Source: Streptomyces humicola
GTDB taxonomy: Bacteria; Actinomycetota; Actinomycetes; Streptomycetales; Streptomycetaceae
Length of the DNA: 64,000 nt
NCBI RefSeq assembly: GCF_024436035.1
Contig: NZ_JANFNG010000018.1
Span: 62,001-126,000, forward strand
Reading direction: 5' to 3'
The notes below the pieces were generated by a model. It did not search any database, was not told the DNA's origin, and saw nothing but the letters and a program-made list of their open reading frames with translations. A program made the translations under genes and the position numbers. This document shows positions 17,291 to 23,809 of the stretch, one piece after another (position 1 is the first letter of the stretch; every line of letters begins with the position of its first letter).

Positions 17291-18649
17291 TCAGAAGTCC
17301 CATCCGTCGTCGGCCGTGCTGTCGGCCTCGGCCGCTGTTGTGCTGGTGGTGGGGAAGGCTTCGCCTGCCATGCCGGCGGTGAGGGTCTGTCCGTCGGCGG
17401 GGTCGATGAGGATGAACGCCCCGGTGCGGCGGGAGTCGGTGTATGCGTCGACGGCCAGCGGCTGGGCGGTGCGCAGCACGACGGAGCCGATGTCGTTGAC
17501 GGCCAGCTCGCCCGGGGCGTTGGTGCGGGCGAGGCCGGCATCCCGGTCGAAGGAGGTGACGTCCAGGCGGCCCGTGATGTCCTTCACGATCGCCTTGACG
17601 GTGCGGGTGCCGTGCTTGAGCAGCACGCGTTCGCCGATGCGCAGCGGGCGTTCGTGCAGGTGGCAGACGGTCGCGGTGATGTCCTGCGTCGGCGTGGGCG
17701 CTCCGGTGGCGGGGGCGATCACATCGCCGCGGGAGATGTCCAGGTCGTCGGCGAGGGTGATCGTCACCGACTGCGGGGCCCAGGCGACGTCGACGGCCTG
17801 GCCGAGGGCGTCGATGCCGGTGATGGCGGAGGTCTGCCCGGAGGGCAGGACGACCACCTGTTGGCCCACCCGCAGCAGGCCGGAGGCGATCTGCCCGGCG
17901 TAGCCGCGGAAGTCGTGGTGCTCCGGGGTCTGCGGGCGGATGACGTACTGGACGGGGAAGCGGGCCGGGGCGTCGGTCTGGTCGGTGCCGACCGGCACGG
18001 TCTCCAGGTGTTCCAGCAGGGTGGGGCCGCCGTACCAGTCCATGTGCGCCGAGGCGGTCACCACGTTGTCGCCGGCGAGTGCGGAGATGGGGATCGAGGT
18101 GATCTCCGGCACCCCGAGCGCGGTCGCGTAGTGGGTGAACTCCTCGGCGATCGCGGCGAAGACCGGCTCGGCGTAGTCGACCAGGTCCATCTTGTTCACC
18201 GCGAGGACGACGTGGGGGACGCGCAGCAGGGCGGCGACCGCGGCGTGGCGGCGGGTCTGCTCGACCACGCCGTTGCGGGCGTCGACCAGCACCACGGCCA
18301 GCTCCGCGGTGGAGGCGCCGGTGACCATGTTGCGGGTGTACTGCACATGGCCGGGGGTGTCGGCGAGGATGAACCTGCGCCTGGGGGTGGCGAAGTAGCG
18401 GTAGGCGACGTCGATAGTGATGCCCTGCTCCCGCTCCGCGCGCAGCCCGTCGGTGAGCAGAGCCAGGTCGGGGGCGTCCTGGCCGCGGCGGCGTGAGGCG
18501 TGCTCGACCGCCTCCAGCTGGTCGGCGAGCACCGACTTCGAGTCGTGCAGCAGCCGGCCGACCAGGGTGGACTTGCCGTCGTCCACGCTGCCGGCGGTGG
18601 CGAAGCGCAGCAGCGAGGTCGCCGAGGTATCAACGGTGGTGGCGGACAT
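17291..18649 (-). CDS. cysN: sulfate adenylyltransferase subunit 1 (GTPase)
   Basis: A 452-residue EF-Tu-like GTPase subunit of ATP sulfurylase; GTP hydrolysis drives formation of adenosine 5'-phosphosulfate by CysD. The G motifs are GSVDDGKSTLVGRLL (G1, near residue 20), GITIDVAYRYF (G2), DTPGHVQYTRNM (G3) and NKMDLVDYAEP (G4). Length is normal for the stand-alone subunit, with no CysC fusion, in agreement with a separate cysC upstream. Its start codon directly abuts the cysD stop codon. Confidence 0.96.
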   Translation of the reverse strand: MSATTVDTSATSLLRFATAGSVDDGKSTLVGRLLHDSKSVLADQLEAVEHASRRRGQDAPDLALLTDGLRAEREQGITIDVAYRYFATPRRRFILADTPGHVQYTRNMVTGASTAELAVVLVDARNGVVEQTRRHAAVAALLRVPHVVLAVNKMDLVDYAEPVFAAIAEEFTHYATALGVPEITSIPISALAGDNVVTASAHMDWYGGPTLLEHLETVPVGTDQTDAPARFPVQYVIRPQTPEHHDFRGYAGQIASGLLRVGQQVVVLPSGQTSAITGIDALGQAVDVAWAPQSVTITLADDLDISRGDVIAPATGAPTPTQDITATVCHLHERPLRIGERVLLKHGTRTVKAIVKDITGRLDVTSFDRDAGLARTNAPGELAVNDIGSVVLRTAQPLAVDAYTDSRRTGAFILIDPADGQTLTAGMAGEAFPTTSTTAAEADSTADDGWDF

Positions 18650-19585
18650 TTAGAAGTACCCCTCGCGCTTGCGGTCTTCCATCGCGGCCTCGGACAGCTT
18701 GTCGTCGGCGCGGGTCGCTCCCCGCTCGGTGAGCCGGGAGGCGGCGATCTCGGCGATCACCTGGTCGATGGTGGCGGCGTCGGAATCCACCGCACCGGTG
18801 CAGGACATGTCACCGACGGTGCGGTACCGCACCATGCGCGACTGGACGGTCTCGCCGTCCTTCGGGCCGCCCCACTCACCCGCCGTCAGCCACATCCCGT
18901 CTCGGGAGAACACCTGGCGGGTGTGCGCGTAGTAGATTTCCGGAAGCTCGATCTTCTCCCGCTCGATGTACTGCCACACATCCAGCTCGGTCCAGTTCGA
19001 CAACGGGAAGACCCGCACATGTTCACCCGGCGCGTGCCGGCCGTTGTACAGCTGCCACAACTCCGGCCGCTGACGGCGCGGATCCCACGCGCCGAACTCG
19101 TCGCGCAGCGAGAACACCCGCTCCTTCGCCCGCGCCTTCTCCTCATCCCGCCGTCCGCCGCCGAACACCGCGTCGTAGCGGCCCTCGTTGATGGCATCGA
19201 GCAACGGCACGGTCTGCAACGGGTTGCGGGTGCCGTCCAGGCGCTCGCGCAGCCTGCCGTCGTCGATGTAGTCCTGCACGGACGCCACATGCAGCCGCAG
19301 CCCGTACTTGGCCACCGTGCGATCCCGGTAGGCCAGAACCTCGGGGAAGTTGTGCCCGGTGTCCACATGCAAAAGCCCGAACGGCACCGCAGCCGGCGCG
19401 AACGCCTTCAGCGCCAGATGCAGCATCACGATCGAGTCCTTGCCACCGGAGAACAAGATCACCGGCCGCTCGAACTCACCCGCCACCTCACGGAAGATGT
19501 GCACACCCTCGGACTCCAACGCGTCCAAGTGCGAAAGCGCATACGGATTGTCGGTATCGGCACCGACAACGGGAGCCGTCGTCAC
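18650..19585 (-). CDS. cysD: sulfate adenylyltransferase subunit 2
   Basis: A 311-residue catalytic subunit of ATP sulfurylase, which makes APS from ATP and sulfate. The PP-loop FSGGKDSIVMLHLALKAF is near residue 45, followed by HVDTGHNFPEVLAYRD and FGGGRRDEEKARAKER. The conserved C-terminus TERGATRADDKLSEAAMEDRK ends KREGYF. The GTG at 19585 overlaps the stop of the preceding 74-codon ORF in a GTGA junction. It partners with CysN immediately downstream. Confidence 0.96.
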   Translation of the reverse strand: MTTAPVVGADTDNPYALSHLDALESEGVHIFREVAGEFERPVILFSGGKDSIVMLHLALKAFAPAAVPFGLLHVDTGHNFPEVLAYRDRTVAKYGLRLHVASVQDYIDDGRLRERLDGTRNPLQTVPLLDAINEGRYDAVFGGGRRDEEKARAKERVFSLRDEFGAWDPRRQRPELWQLYNGRHAPGEHVRVFPLSNWTELDVWQYIEREKIELPEIYYAHTRQVFSRDGMWLTAGEWGGPKDGETVQSRMVRYRTVGDMSCTGAVDSDAATIDQVIAEIAASRLTERGATRADDKLSEAAMEDRKREGYF

Positions 19586-19806
19586 GCTGCACCCCTTCCG
19601 CTCGCACCGCCGCGCCGGCGGCTACTGGCCCCATCAGGGGGCATCTCCCGCCGCAGGCAGGGGGAGGCTCCGCCACGGGCACTGTCGCCCGCGGGGCGCA
19701 CAGGCGCGGCCTCCCCCAGACTCCGTCCGGGGGTACCTCCTGTCCTCATCTGCGGCCCGGCGGCCGCCCCGCCGCGGTAGCAGCTGATGTCGCGGTCGTT
19801 GCTCAC
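19582..19806 (-). CDS. 74-codon repeat-derived ORF bridging cysC and cysD
   Basis: This ORF starts with GTG at 19806 in a GTGA overlap with the cysC stop and ends in a GTGA overlap with the cysD start, so ribosomes could pass cysC-ORF-cysD without a gap. The product starts MSNDRDISCYRGGAAAGPQM and then becomes Gly/Arg/Pro-rich low-complexity sequence. That part is the translation of a hairpin-rich intergenic repeat. I recognise no domain. It may be a real small protein with a conserved N-terminus, or a chance frame kept open to preserve translational coupling across an inserted repeat. Confidence 0.4.
   Translation of the reverse strand: MSNDRDISCYRGGAAAGPQMRTGGTPGRSLGEAAPVRPAGDSARGGASPCLRREMPPDGASSRRRGGASGRGAA
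19620..19745. repeat. Streptomyces-type intergenic hairpin repeat
   Basis: The stretch contains nested inverted repeats. GGGGGAGGC (19660-19668) can pair with GCCTCCCCC (19709-19717). CCCCCAGAC can pair with GTCCGGGGG around a TCC loop (19713-19733) with one G-U pair. Elements with the CCCCCAGACTCCGTCCGGGGG core recur between Streptomyces genes. Placement inside a coupled operon is unusual. Confidence 0.6.
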
Positions 19807-20378
19807 AGCAGTCCCCTCTCGCTCAGCAGCGCAGCCAGCGCCGCGGCGGACTCGTCCACGCTCTGCGTGTGCGCCTCGATCCGCAGGTCCGGTGCGGCCG
19901 GGGCCTCGTACGGGTCGTCCACACCCGTCAGGCCCGAGATCTCACCCGCCGCCTGCTTGGCGTACAGGCCCTTCACGTCCCGCACCGAACACACCTCGAC
20001 CGGAGTGGCCACATGCACCTCGAGGTACGTGGTGCCCGCCGCCTCGTGCCGCTTGCGCACCGCCTCACGGCTGCGCCCGTACGGAGCGATCACCGGCACC
20101 AGCGCCTTCACGCCGTTCGACGCCAGCAACTCGGCCACGAAACCGATCCGCTGCACATTGGTGTGCCGGTCTTCCGCGGTGAAACCGAGCCCCGCGGAGA
20201 GGAACTCGCGGATCTCGTCCCCGTCGAGCACCTCCACCCGGTGCCCGTCGCCCCGCAGCCGCTCCGCCAGCGCGTAGGCGATGGTCGTCTTCCCCGCGCT
20301 CGGCAGACCGGTGAGCCACACGGTGGCTCCCTGGCCTGTCACGCCCATTGATCGCTCCTGCTGTGTCACGTTCGTCAT
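19803..20378 (-). CDS. cysC: adenylyl-sulfate kinase
   Basis: A 191-residue APS kinase that phosphorylates APS to PAPS with ATP. The P-loop WLTGLPSAGKTTIAYAL is near residues 21-37, then LDGDEIREFLSAGLGF, RHTNVQRIGFVAELL and the lid segment RDVKGLYAKQAAGEISGLTGVDDPYE. The ATG at 20378 overlaps the cysH stop (ATGA), matching the pattern of the run. An alternative ATG at 20348 has a better ribosome site (AGGAG 7 nt upstream). The presence of both CysC and an APS-reductase-like CysH suggests that PAPS here mainly serves sulfotransfer. Confidence 0.93.
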   Translation of the reverse strand: MTNVTQQERSMGVTGQGATVWLTGLPSAGKTTIAYALAERLRGDGHRVEVLDGDEIREFLSAGLGFTAEDRHTNVQRIGFVAELLASNGVKALVPVIAPYGRSREAVRKRHEAAGTTYLEVHVATPVEVCSVRDVKGLYAKQAAGEISGLTGVDDPYEAPAAPDLRIEAHTQSVDESAAALAALLSERGLL

Positions 20379-21088
20379 CCGTGCAGCCCGCACTCGGTCT
20401 TGGCCCGGCCCGCCCAGCGGCCGGCCCGCGCGTCCTCACCTTCGAGCACGCGGCGGGTGCACGGTGCGCAGCCGACGGAGGCGTAGCCGTCCATCAGCAG
20501 TGGGTTGGTCAGTACGCCGTGTTCGGCGACGTAGGCGTCCACATCGGCCTGCGTCCAGCGGGCGATGGGGGAGACCTTGACCTTGCGGCGCTTGGCGTCC
20601 CAGCCGACGACCGGCGTGTTCGCGCGGGTCGGGGACTCGTCGCGGCGCAGGCCCGTCGCCCATGCGTCGTAGTTGCGCAACCCCTCTTCCAGGGGCTTGA
20701 CCTTGCGCAGCGCGCAGCACAGGTCGGGGTCGCGGTCGTGCAGCTTATCGCCGTACTCGGCGTCCTGCTCGGCCACCGTCTGGCGCGGGGTCAGCGTGAT
20801 GACGTTGACGTCCATCACCGCGGCCACGGCGTCGCGGGTGCCGATCGTCTCGGGGAAGTGGTAGCCGGTGTCGAGGAAGACCACGTCGACGCCGGGGAAC
20901 GCGCGCGAGGCGAGGTGCGCCACGACCGCGTCCTCCATCGAGGAGGTGACGCAGAAGCGCGGCCCGAACGTTTCGGCGGCCCACCGCAGCACGTCGAGCG
21001 CGTCGGCGTCCTCCAGGTCACGGCCCGCCTGCTCGGCCAGTTCCCGCAGTTCGTCCTCGGTACGGCCGGTGGTCGCTGCGGTGGTCAT
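20375..21088 (-). CDS. cysH: adenylyl-sulfate reductase (thioredoxin-dependent, CysH type)
   Basis: A 237-residue reductase producing sulfite from activated sulfate. The PAPS-reductase core shows FCVTSSMEDAVVAHL near residue 46 and DTGYHFPETIGTRD. Two paired cysteines, DLCCALRK near residue 123 and GCAPCTRRV near residue 207, are the four ligands of the [4Fe-4S] cluster that marks APS-specific reductases. The catalytic ECGLH is at the C-terminus. The ATG at 21088 overlaps the stop of the upstream zinc-ribbon gene. Confidence 0.95.
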   Translation of the reverse strand: MTTAATTGRTEDELRELAEQAGRDLEDADALDVLRWAAETFGPRFCVTSSMEDAVVAHLASRAFPGVDVVFLDTGYHFPETIGTRDAVAAVMDVNVITLTPRQTVAEQDAEYGDKLHDRDPDLCCALRKVKPLEEGLRNYDAWATGLRRDESPTRANTPVVGWDAKRRKVKVSPIARWTQADVDAYVAEHGVLTNPLLMDGYASVGCAPCTRRVLEGEDARAGRWAGRAKTECGLHG

Positions 21089-21264
21089 CGTGTGCCCCCT
21101 TCGTCAGTGCCGTGCCGCAGGCCCTTGGCCAGCAGCCCGATGAACGAGAGCCGGAACGCGCGATTGCACGATCCGCATTCCCACACTCCGTGGCCTTCCT
21201 CGGAGGGCCGCAGGTCCTCGTCGCCGCAGTACGGGCAGTAGAACGGCGCAGCACGCTCACTCAC
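21085..21264 (-). CDS. 59-residue zinc-ribbon protein between sulfite reductase and cysH
   Basis: A small gene with a GTGA overlap to the sulfite reductase stop and an ATGA overlap to the cysH start. The product begins VSERAAPFYCPYCGDEDLRP, continues with EEGHGVWECGSCNRAFRLSF and ends IGLLAKGLRHGTDEGGTR. Two CxxC knuckles (CPYC at residues 10-13 and CGSC near 33-36) predict a zinc or iron site. Tight coupling on both sides suggests a role in electron delivery to, or maturation of, the sulfite and APS reductases. This is inference; I know no demonstrated function. Confidence 0.85.
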   Translation of the reverse strand: MSERAAPFYCPYCGDEDLRPSEEGHGVWECGSCNRAFRLSFIGLLAKGLRHGTDEGGTR

Positions 21265-22958
21265 GACAACGCCTCCTCCGACGCACGCGATGCCCAGGCA
21301 GCGAACCGCTCGCCGTCCTCGCGTTCGGCCTGGAAGCGGCGGAGCACCCGCTCGATGTAGTCGGGGAGTTCGGCAGCGGTGACCTTCAGGCCGCGCACCT
21401 TGCGGCCGAATGCGGGGTCGAGGCCGAGGGTCCCGCCGAGGTGCACCTGGAAGCCCTCGACCTGCTCGCCGTCGTCGTTCATCACCAACTGGCCCTTGAG
21501 GCCGATGTCCGCGGTCTGGATGCGGGCGCAGGCGTTGGGGCAGCCGTTGACGTTGATGGTGATCGGCTCGTCGAACTCCGGCAGGCGCCGCTCCAGCTCC
21601 TCGATGAGCGCCGCGCCGCGCGCCTTGGTCTCCACGATGGCGAGCTTGCAGAACTCGATGCCGGTGCAGGCCATCGTGCCGCGCCGGAACGGCGAGGGGG
21701 TCACCTGGAAGCCGAGCGATTCGAGTCCGCTGACGAGGGAGTCAACGCGGTCCTGCTCGACGTCGAGGATGATCATCTTCTGTTCGACCGTGGTGCGGAG
21801 CCGGTCCGAGCCGTGGTCCGCGGCAAGCTCAGCGATCTTGGCGAGCGTGGGGCCGTCGACCCGCCCGACGCGCGGTGCGAACCCCACGTAGAACCGGCCG
21901 TCGCGCTGCGGGTGGACGCCGACGTGGTCGCGCCAGCGCGAGCGCGGCTCCTCGGGCGCGGGCCCGTCGGTCAGCTTGCGCTTCAGGTACTCGTCCTCCA
22001 GTACCTGGCGGAACTTCTCCGCACCCCAGTCGGCCAGCAGGAACTTCAGCCGGGCGCGGGTACGCAGCCGCCGGTAGCCGTAGTCGCGGAAGATGCCGAC
22101 CACGCCGGCCCACACGTCGGCCACCTCGTCGAGCGGCACCCAGGCGCCCAGCCGTTCCGCGAAGCGCGGGTTGGTGGACAGGCCGCCGCCGACCCACAGG
22201 TCGAAACCGGGCCCGTGCTCGGGGTGGACGACTCCGACGAAGGCGACGTCGTTGATCTCGTGGACGACGTCCTGGATCGGCGAGCCGGAGATCGCGGTCT
22301 TGAACTTGCGCGGCAGGTTCGAGAACTGCTTGCTGCCGATGAAGCGCTCGTGGATCTCCTCGATCGCGGGTGTGCCGTCGATGATCTCGTCCGCGGCGAT
22401 CCCGGCGACCGGCGAGCCGATCACCACGCGCGGGCAGTCGCCGCACGCCTCGGTGGTGGACAGGCCGACGGCCTCCAGCTTCTCCCAGATCGCGGGCACG
22501 TCCTCGATCCGCACCCAGTGCAACTGGATGTTCTGGCGGTCGGTGATGTCGGCGGTGCCGCGCGCGTAGCTCTCCGAGACCTCGCCGATGGCGCGCAGCT
22601 GGGCGACGGTGAGGCGGCCGCCGTCGATGCGCACCCGCATCATGAAGTACTTGTCGTCGAGCTCCTCCGGCTCGAGGACGGCGGTCTTGCCGCCGTCGAT
22701 GCCGGGCTTGCGCTGGGTGTACAGGCCCCACCAGCGCATACGACCGCGCAGGTCGGCGGGGTCGATCGCGTCGAAGCCGCGGTGGGCGTAGATCGTCTCA
22801 ATGCGTGTCCGCACATTGAGACCGTCGTCGTCCTTCTTGGACTGTTCGTTGCCGTTGAGCGGCGTGAAATGGCCGACGGCCCACTGGCCCTCGCCGCGGT
22901 GGCGGTGGGCCTTGCGGCGCTGGGGCGCAGCTTTGGAGGTCTCGGGCGTGGTGGCCAT
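21261..22958 (-). CDS. sir: assimilatory sulfite reductase (ferredoxin-type, siroheme)
   Basis: A 565-residue siroheme/[4Fe-4S] enzyme of the nitrite/sulfite reductase family, reducing sulfite to sulfide. Two ferredoxin-like half-domains and two siroheme domains are visible. Motifs are RMRWWGLYTQRKPGIDGG, DITDRQNIQLHWVRIEDVP and ACGDCPRVVIGSP. The cluster cysteines lie in MACTGIEFCKLA near residue 429 and NGCPNACAR near residue 471. The surrounding cys genes favour sulfite over nitrite. The ATG at 22958 is chosen; an in-frame TTG at 22973 is less likely. It is the first large gene of the run, 130 bp behind a leader ORF. Confidence 0.95.
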   Translation of the reverse strand: MATTPETSKAAPQRRKAHRHRGEGQWAVGHFTPLNGNEQSKKDDDGLNVRTRIETIYAHRGFDAIDPADLRGRMRWWGLYTQRKPGIDGGKTAVLEPEELDDKYFMMRVRIDGGRLTVAQLRAIGEVSESYARGTADITDRQNIQLHWVRIEDVPAIWEKLEAVGLSTTEACGDCPRVVIGSPVAGIAADEIIDGTPAIEEIHERFIGSKQFSNLPRKFKTAISGSPIQDVVHEINDVAFVGVVHPEHGPGFDLWVGGGLSTNPRFAERLGAWVPLDEVADVWAGVVGIFRDYGYRRLRTRARLKFLLADWGAEKFRQVLEDEYLKRKLTDGPAPEEPRSRWRDHVGVHPQRDGRFYVGFAPRVGRVDGPTLAKIAELAADHGSDRLRTTVEQKMIILDVEQDRVDSLVSGLESLGFQVTPSPFRRGTMACTGIEFCKLAIVETKARGAALIEELERRLPEFDEPITINVNGCPNACARIQTADIGLKGQLVMNDDGEQVEGFQVHLGGTLGLDPAFGRKVRGLKVTAAELPDYIERVLRRFQAEREDGERFAAWASRASEEALS

Positions 22959-23087
22959 GGCGTTGCGGTCCAATCAAGCAGACTCAGGGCGGTGCGTGGC
23001 GCGGCGTCCCTGGCCTGCGGAGGCTGGGCAGCGGAGACCGCGCGTCCGCGACGACGGGAAGTGCGTGAGGGGTACGGCGCTGGACGG

Positions 23088-23171
23088 TCAGCTCGCCGGA
23101 CAGATGGCGCTGGACATGCGGCCGAGGTCGACGTGCAGTCGACCTACCAAGGCGATTCCAGCGCGAGACAT
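23088..23171 (-). CDS. 27-residue sulfur leader peptide
   Basis: A short ORF upstream of the sulfite reductase gene encodes MSRAGIALVGRLHVDLGRMS followed by SAICPAS. The HVDLxR core and a C-terminal Cys are the hallmarks of short actinobacterial leader peptides placed ahead of sulfur and cysteine genes, where translation is thought to sense cysteine supply. The ATG at 23171 lies about 40 bp downstream of a GATAAT -10-like hexamer. No strong ribosome site is visible. The 130 bp between its stop and the reductase start is where attenuation would act. Confidence 0.8.
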   Translation of the reverse strand: MSRAGIALVGRLHVDLGRMSSAICPAS

Positions 23172-23204
23172 GACGGCAGCGTGGCACGGCCGTCTTGTGC
23201 GAGT

Positions 23205-23221
23205 CCACTATTATCCACTAT
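23205..23221. promoter_or_regulatory. promoter with 10-bp-phased direct repeat ahead of the sulfur run
   Basis: CCACTAT occurs at 23205-23211 and 23215-23221, exactly one helical turn apart. The intervening bases read GATAAT on the minus strand (23215 to 23210), a good -10 element for the leader/sulfite reductase transcript. A repressor bound to the repeat would cover the -10. No clear -35 is seen. Confidence 0.5.
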
Positions 23222-23263
23222 GTGGACGCGATCATTTCGCTTCATGAGACGCTGTGTCGCGCG

Positions 23264-23809
23264 TCACCATGCGGGCGGCGTCGGCTTCTCCTCCTGCTCG
23301 GTGCGGGTCTCGAAGAGCCGGAACCCGCGCCGCTGGTAGTTGCCGAGCGCGTGCGGCCCGTCGAGGTCGCAGGTGTGCACCCACACCCGCTTCGTCGGCG
23401 GGCGGTGCGGCCACCGCTGGGCCAGGTCCCACGCCCGTGCCGTGCCGTACGACAGAAGATGGCCCCCGATGCGGCGACCTCGGAAGGCCGGCAGGAGCCC
23501 GAAGTACGCGATCTCGACCTGGGTGTCCTGCTGGGCCTCCAGCTCGATGTACCCGGCGGGCGTCCCCCGCTCGTACGCCACCCACGTCTCGACGCCCGGC
23601 TGGTGCAGGTACTCCTGCCACCGGGTGCGCGGCCACGCCAGCCGGTCGGTCCACGAGACGTCGGCGCCGACCGATGCGTACAGGTAGCGGCTGAACTCCG
23701 GGCTCGGCACCTCGGCCCGCACGATCGTGATCCCGTGCGCCTCGCCCGCAGGAGTGAGGTCGGCCGGCGAGGTCTGCTCCAGGCACCAGGTGGTGACGGT
23801 GACGCTCAT
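23264..23809 (-). CDS. GNAT-family N-acetyltransferase
   Basis: A 181-residue acetyl-CoA-dependent acyltransferase. The GNAT motif A is AYFGLLPAFRGRRIGGHLL near residues 99-117, preceded by beta-strand ETWVAYERGTPAGYIELEAQ. The C-terminal motif B region GNYQRRGFRLFETR is also present. The ATG at 23809 starts the family-like MSVTVTTWCLEQTSPADL. Its acceptor substrate is unknown. It precedes the sulfur leader region on the same strand, with about 90 bp between. Confidence 0.85.
   Translation of the reverse strand: MSVTVTTWCLEQTSPADLTPAGEAHGITIVRAEVPSPEFSRYLYASVGADVSWTDRLAWPRTRWQEYLHQPGVETWVAYERGTPAGYIELEAQQDTQVEIAYFGLLPAFRGRRIGGHLLSYGTARAWDLAQRWPHRPPTKRVWVHTCDLDGPHALGNYQRRGFRLFETRTEQEEKPTPPAW

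Follow-up and report, generated by a model that had tools for sequence, protein, structure and literature searches.

Cysteine leader peptides and related attenuators

Leader peptides have been described or proposed for cysteine genes of several bacteria. Leaderless polycysteine short ORFs of mycobacteria (Canestrari et al. 2020) are described in the available parts of PMC9031893 and PMC13236596. Candidate leader peptides of cys operons were reported for Mycobacterium, P. acnes, and B. longum by Seliverstov et al. 2005 (PMC1262725). In the part of that article available, Rho is proposed as acting at the mycobacterial cys leaders, a proposal termed weak since the motifs are not conserved, and E. 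coli tnaC is cited as a parallel. For streptomycetes, the reannotation of S. lividans TK24 comprises eight leader peptides, and the accessible portion of the article (PMC8079986) contains no Cys leader at sir. The open-access literature searched yielded no RNA-level cysteine control of streptomycete sulfate assimilation and no paper on a streptomycete sir leader or on an exclusive use of UGU therein; Canestrari et al. 2020 may note a UGU preference. At the level of protein families, NF042934 (cis_reg_atten) collects putative leader peptides, and its record gives no mechanism.

Architecture of the sir-cysHCDN locus

The window, meaning the whole stretch of 64,000 nucleotides analyzed herein, stems from the genome of Streptomyces humicola (7.07 Mb in 78 contigs). 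Its genes of sulfate assimilation lie on the minus strand in the following order:

23809-23264, minus strand: GNAT acetyltransferase gene, upstream neighbor of the leader promoter region
between this gene and the leader ORF, minus strand: promoter region of 92 bp
23088..23171, minus strand: leader peptide ORF MSRAGIALVGRLHVDLGRMSSAICPAS of 27 residues, with ATG start and TGA stop, assigned by NF042934 and conservation, predicted to be leaderless
22959..23087, minus strand: untranslated gap of 129 nt (C 0.46, G 0.28), a candidate Rho-loading region by composition
21261..22958, minus strand: sulfite/nitrite reductase gene (sir/cysI), its ATG at 22958 set by orthologue alignment
21085..21264, minus strand: 59-residue ORF with CPYC and CGSC motifs, in the place of SCO6101
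20375..21088, minus strand: cysH, by its PAPS reductase domain
19803..20393, minus strand: cysC (APS kinase), by its domain
18650..19585, minus strand: cysD (sulfate adenylyltransferase subunit 2), by its domain and an order as for SCO6098
17291..18649, minus strand: cysN (GTPase subunit), by its domain and an order as for SCO6097

This order corresponds to SCO6102-SCO6095 of S. coelicolor as given in the available part of PMC4991794, and sulfonate-transport-like genes come after cysN on the minus strand. The closest named relative of the sir gene is from a Streptomycetaceae bacterium (92% identity). The 59-residue ORF between sir and cysH has no Pfam match; with its two CxxC motifs, it might bind metal and act as a small partner of sulfite reductase.

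The leader peptide and its family

Family membership and conservation indicate that the leader ORF is real, deeply conserved, and of the cysteine type. The peptide has two notable features:

23118..23135, minus strand: HVDLGR core (H 81/82, D 82/82, and R(+5) 72/82 in the class set without streptomycetes)
23100..23102, minus strand: predicted sensor codon UGU of Cys24, UGU being near-exclusive at position HVDL+11

The peptide scores 31.6 bits against NF042934 (cut-off 27) and hence belongs to this family; residues 7-24 align with positions 2-19 of the 19-position profile, the end of which is the sensor Cys. Against NF042936, the Ms4527A Cys-rich leader peptide, it scores 20.5 bits and stays below the cut-off of 45 bits. 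A search of the whole window against Rfam gave no match.

The leader was found at all 81 streptomycete sir loci, i.e., the window and 80 named loci. The regular-expression search recovered it in 80 of these; L099 carries the core as HVDH and is therefore omitted from all 80-locus counts, while it is kept in the 81. The class sample comprises 148 genomes, 112 of them with sir, which gave 111 upstream regions besides that of the window. A leader with core and Cys is present in 92/111, and the 19 regions lacking it include three (G054, G061, and G018) that end at contig ends. Matches to NF042934 at E<=0.001 occur in 110/148 class genomes as opposed to 0/14 control genomes.

For the 82 leaders from outside the window's family, conservation extends beyond the near-invariant H and D of the core to R(-2) in 81/82, L(-5) in 80/82, and Cys(+11) in 79/82. 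Since these residues are conserved and all four CGN codons are used at R(-2) in the same 82 leaders, selection acts on the residues and on the Cys codon alike. Among the streptomycete leaders, third codon positions vary three to four times more than first and second positions. The three class leaders without Cys in register are G025, in which TGT lies one codon later, G119, which has no TGT, and G062, which was registered on a wrong match and whose true core region also has TGT. The sequence-only reading had noticed the 27-residue ORF with its HVDLGR core ahead of sulfite reductase and had proposed it as a cysteine-type leader of the sulfur operon, with loss of the peptide in relatives as the contrary outcome. 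Alignment across streptomycetes shows the peptide to be retained, and the conserved Cys as well as a family linked to cysteine attenuation bear the proposal out.

Compared with the mycobacterial polycysteine ORFs, the leader shares its position as a short ORF before cysteine genes; from promoter geometry, a leaderless start is predicted for it. It differs in having one Cys in place of a run and in the HVDLxR core conserved in its family. In some members of the class, relatives with a run of Cys (KRVCTCCC) are found in its position upstream of sir. From these sequence comparisons, the leader is best read as a new variant of the mycobacterial polycysteine leaders.

The UGU codon at the putative sensor position

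The window leader contains a single Cys codon, codon 24, which is located three codons before the stop. At this position, UGU is used in 80/80 streptomycete sir leaders, in 79/79 class sir leaders that carry an in-register Cys, in 26/26 scored class family matches (3 of 29 such loci, L107, L129, and L130, fell outside the scoring pattern), and in 8/8 leaders of the own genome with Cys there; the class family matches are partly the sir leaders themselves, so that the sets overlap, and no p-value is attached to the cross-species counts because related genomes are not independent. By comparison, UGU makes up 140 of 1014 Cys codons (13.8%) among the ORFs called in 400 kb of this genome, at which frequency simple arithmetic gives a chance of ~1e-7 for eight own leaders all with UGU. 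Only 8 of 436 Cys codons in sir coding sequences are UGU. The remaining Cys codons of the leader peptides themselves are UGC in 9/9 cases for streptomycete sir leaders and in 48/61 for the class-set peptides.

Beyond the sir loci, a core pattern that ends in TGT occurs in 201/296 class genomes and one that ends in TGC in 8/296. For the 28 genomes of the window's family among those listed, a hand sum gives 157 TGT matches versus 1 TGC match. Four TGC matches in the 296 genomes (G250, G061, G023, and G124) look leader-like by eye.

ARAGORN, applied to all 58 tRNA-like places of the genome, one of which yielded no tRNA, identified two tRNA-Cys genes, both with anticodon GCA. Hence, a single anticodon would read both Cys codons, UGU by wobble. 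This wobble reading is expected to be the slower one here. The accepted explanation for the codons of attenuation leaders is that different isoacceptors are charged selectively (PMC1183508, available in part). As this theory needs different isoacceptors and there is one anticodon here, it does not cover the case of UGU.

Promoter region and upstream sites

The region upstream of the leader contains the following elements:

23178..23183, minus strand: -10 element CACGCT, 6 nt before the ATG, identical in 73/80 loci
23202..23207, minus strand: -35 element TGGACT, with an 18-bp spacer, identical in 73/80 loci
23213..23227, minus strand: NdgR box GTCCACATAGTGGAT, matrix score 14.6, best position at -56 in 80/81 loci
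23205-23211 and 23215-23221, plus strand: two copies of the CCACTAT direct repeat, in the overlap of the -35 element and the NdgR box

The 85 bp upstream of the leader ATG align over 81 loci without a gap, with TGGACT at -36 and CACGCT at -12 relative to this ATG. The two most important bases of a -10 element, A and T, are present in CACGCT. No promoter was called at the leader in a scan for the sigma-70 consensus, the threshold of which is stricter than the TGGACT/CACGCT match. Among the 82 leaders outside the family, the pattern [TC]AN3T lies 5-8 nt before a start in 56 (13.0 expected from shuffles) and the strict form TAN3T in 10 (4.4 expected). With the conserved -10 element located 6 nt upstream of the ATG, a leaderless transcript is predicted, its first nucleotide being the A of the leader ATG, position 23171. 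A start downstream of this position, which the sequence-only reading had named as adverse to its proposal, is not what the promoter geometry predicts.

The same reading had taken the CCACTAT repeat as an operator, the hexamer GATAAT (minus strand, 23210-23215) as the -10 element, and repression as the resulting control. The repeat is exact in the window, its copies lying 10 bp or one helical turn apart, but it is found in 1/81 loci, the window alone. GATAAT occurs in 4/81 and gives way to the far better conserved CACGCT. The alignment identifies the repeat as the right arm of the NdgR box and the -35 element together. A regulon based on the repeat was considered and dropped: a search of the own genome returned the window site and one weak site versus two for the reversed pattern, and hence nothing is built on a result no better than its control.

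The NdgR box was scored with a matrix made from 17 ChIP sites of PMC4340878 (available in part), leaving out GTCCACATTTTGGAT; in 400 kb scanned from the own genome, 10 positions score at least as high as the box. GTCCACATTTTGGAT is an entry in Table 1 of that article and was assigned to SCO6102 by its genome position and by an identical 15-mer in L061. Located upstream of the leader, the predicted box of the window lies at the same aligned place as this 15-mer, as for the NdgR regulon of S. coelicolor. In the available text of PMC4340878, ChIP-seq in S. coelicolor shows NdgR bound at the cysI (SCO6102), cysM, and cysA units. The feed-forward loop at cysI is reported as coherent and of the OR-gate type, and the ChIP and expression data point to a positive role of NdgR there, which leaves repression at the -10 element unsupported. 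The other leaders of the own genome mostly have low NdgR-box scores, and common control of all leaders by NdgR is therefore not claimed.

Upstream of the NdgR box, a second dyad GTCTC-N7-GRGAC centered at -71 (23233-23251 in the window) is conserved in relatives, with 0.71 of its arm positions complementary compared with a median of 0.27 over centers; in the window, its right arm is decayed. A predicted SenR site is reported 152 nt before SCO6102 in the available part of PMC4991794. It would sit inside the leader ORF in 57/80 loci, and as its fragment CCGGGCCGC is found in only 3/80 regions, nothing is built on this site.

The gap between leader and sir

The gap that follows the leader contains more C than G in 80/80 streptomycete and 91/92 class loci. 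Its mean C content is 0.43 in both sets, and its mean G content is 0.26 in streptomycetes and 0.29 in the class. In 105 5' intergenic gaps of the own genome, which were obtained by a gene calling with 77% of the DNA coding, the median C-G difference is approximately zero; the value of 0.178 for the window gap is equaled or exceeded by 3 of these controls. The gaps of the nine own leaders exceed the 105 controls as a set (p=4.6e-6), the gap of L002 being unremarkable with 35/105 controls as high. Folding is weaker in the gaps, at -0.294 versus -0.367 kcal/mol per nt (40 of the 80 gaps and 60 of the 105 controls compared). The UGU rule at the sensor codon and the C>G bias of the gap, both read from sequence, are new here and add to what is recorded for NF042934.

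A classical attenuator with an intrinsic terminator would have a hairpin plus U tract before the gene; no terminator-like site was found in 22900-23300. U-rich tracts are present in 29/80 streptomycete and 18/92 class gaps, and intrinsic termination is possible at some of these other loci. The genome encodes Rho, with two rho-type matches above the family cut-off on contigs C33 and C22 (L263 and L264). The stop codon follows the sensor Cys by three codons in 79/80 streptomycete leaders and by three or four in 62/82 class leaders; due to this short distance, a stalled ribosome would extend to the stop and to the border of the gap.

E. coli tnaC is Rho-dependent and encodes an arrest peptide. 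The window resembles it in its short ORF, the lack of an intrinsic terminator, a C-rich, G-poor, and weakly structured region after the stop that is a candidate for Rho access, and conserved residues that would lie in the tunnel; it differs in sequence, and its arrest and ligand are putative. With the leaders of Seliverstov et al., it shares a Cys leader that lacks a terminator and for which Rho is proposed. Unlike those, it belongs to a class-wide set that includes streptomycetes, with a quantified C>G bias and a composition that is conserved.

In the 72 loci whose gaps do not exceed 190 nt, a fold within the leader ORF was predicted as conserved (-19.6 versus -2.0 after shuffling the columns 30 times). 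Nearly all of its pairs are invariant or show one-sided changes, and the ORF is under coding constraint, for which reason this fold is not used.

Other leaders in the same genome

In the own genome, the family model matches eight places at E<0.001, exceeding its cut-off at four, and weakly also a ninth with E 0.17; the leader of the window is among the nine. The others precede genes with domains of the PALP, luciferase-like monooxygenase (two), and rhodanese types and with cysteine dioxygenase together with rhodanese domains. At the PALP (cysteine synthase-like) gene, a small ORF lies between leader and gene. L005 precedes an ORF that resembles a sulfonate permease by eye and has no Pfam match.

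L008 (C55) and L009 (C8) are located before rhodanese genes beside cysteine dioxygenase-type genes. The dioxygenase domain was tested at L009 only; the unit of L008 was assigned by its rhodanese gene, and its dioxygenase-type gene by translation. Release upon cysteine shortage would not obviously suit the breakdown of cysteine, unless it serves sulfur scavenging. L007 (1492-1566) is a leader-like ORF MSRTLTRRLHIDLLRVCSAYGPAH with a Shine-Dalgarno-like sequence in front and without the sensor Cys, and no clear sulfur gene lies downstream.

Proposed mechanism and alternatives

Leader conservation and codon use make attenuation by a cysteine leader highly probable. As a whole, the model favored here, of which we are somewhat more confident than doubtful, is a leaderless cysteine-sensing attenuator that heads sir-cysHCDN, with a single UGU sensor codon and Rho as the proposed effector. 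Taken by itself, the assignment of Rho is more tentative, a strong candidate without being the expected outcome. Herein, the stalling, the direction of the response, the Rho step, and the leaderless start are all inferred. An NdgR box centered near -49 and the TGGACT/CACGCT promoter would give a transcript that begins with the A of the leader ATG. A ribosome would then translate the 27 codons, of which UGU at codon 24 is the only one for Cys. When charged tRNA-Cys is scarce, it would stall with UGU in the A site, probably assisted by the nascent residues L, R, H, V, and D, which would lie 9-16 residues back in the exit tunnel. The stalled ribosome would block or delay Rho at the C-rich, G-poor gap, and transcription would reach sir-cysHCDN. 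With enough cysteine, the ribosome would finish and leave, and Rho would stop transcription in the gap. Several points speak against this model: a classical attenuator would be expected to have more than one Cys codon; L008 and L009 stand before cysteine dioxygenase-type genes, for which induction upon a lack of cysteine has no obvious use; and L007, likewise an own leader, lacks an in-register Cys. As regards Rho, C-richness is merely a correlate of Rho loading, and the stalled ribosome would leave much of the 129-nt gap exposed.

Among the alternatives, translational attenuation as in the mycobacterial polycysteine ORFs is the most serious one, and still rather unlikely. The leader would pair with the ribosome-binding site of sir, and a stall at Cys would free this site. 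Such control is reported for related leaderless Cys ORFs of M. smegmatis in the available parts of PMC9031893 and PMC13236596, and the subthreshold match to NF042936 points in the same direction. In the fold predictions for 80 streptomycete loci, however, the predicted Shine-Dalgarno site of sir finds its partner mainly inside the gap (0.50) and less in the leader (0.16). When the stretch under a ribosome at Cys24 is blocked, the site opens by a median of 0.00, with values >0.2 in 4/80. These predictions show no sign of a masked ribosome-binding site and argue against its release as reported for M. smegmatis.

It is also unlikely that the peptide L..RxHVDLxR..S..C senses a sulfur metabolite in the tunnel in the manner of TnaC and tryptophan, rather than uncharged tRNA-Cys. 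That amino acids and not codons are kept before the Cys, as seen at R(-2), D, and H and in the variable third positions of streptomycetes, would fit such an arrest, whereas arrest alone does not explain a Cys encoded by UGU only, and A replaces H in sulfurtransferase-type leaders. Similarly improbable is that UGU is fixed apart from decoding speed, by RNA pairing, a polymerase pause, or a DNA site, with Cys hitch-hiking. This would be in line with the preference for AGC for Ser at +8 (65/69 sir leaders) and with the predicted ORF fold; yet the codons flanking UGU on either side vary widely, members with ACC, GGC, or TCC at +8 retain UGU, and the fold is almost devoid of two-sided changes. A repressor that acts on the CCACTAT repeat over a GATAAT -10 element can draw on the presence of both in the window and is nevertheless very improbable, with both so rarely found at loci where TGGACT, CACGCT, and the NdgR box are conserved. 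The attenuator with a UGU sensor codon hence stays the preferred reading; the parts worth following are the rule for UGU at the sensor codon and the excess of C over G in the gap, and the promoter story has become one of a putative activator box and a predicted leaderless promoter.

Implications for sulfur metabolism of actinobacteria

A wider reading, which is speculative and rather less likely than not, is that actinobacteria control unlinked sulfur operons across the class by leaderless arrest-type leaders, in which a UGU read only by wobble is kept against genome usage for hypersensitivity of the stall to the charging of one tRNA and Rho is the common effector. Since selective charging of isoacceptors cannot explain UGU, this reading would imply a codon-kinetic sensor. 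UGU is used almost without exception in spite of the strong preference for UGC, which offers a direct test of the choice of sensor codon: one synonymous change, from UGU to UGC, would tell the effects of decoding kinetics and of charging apart. Streptomycetes would herewith gain a defined set of operons for joint tests of cysteine control.
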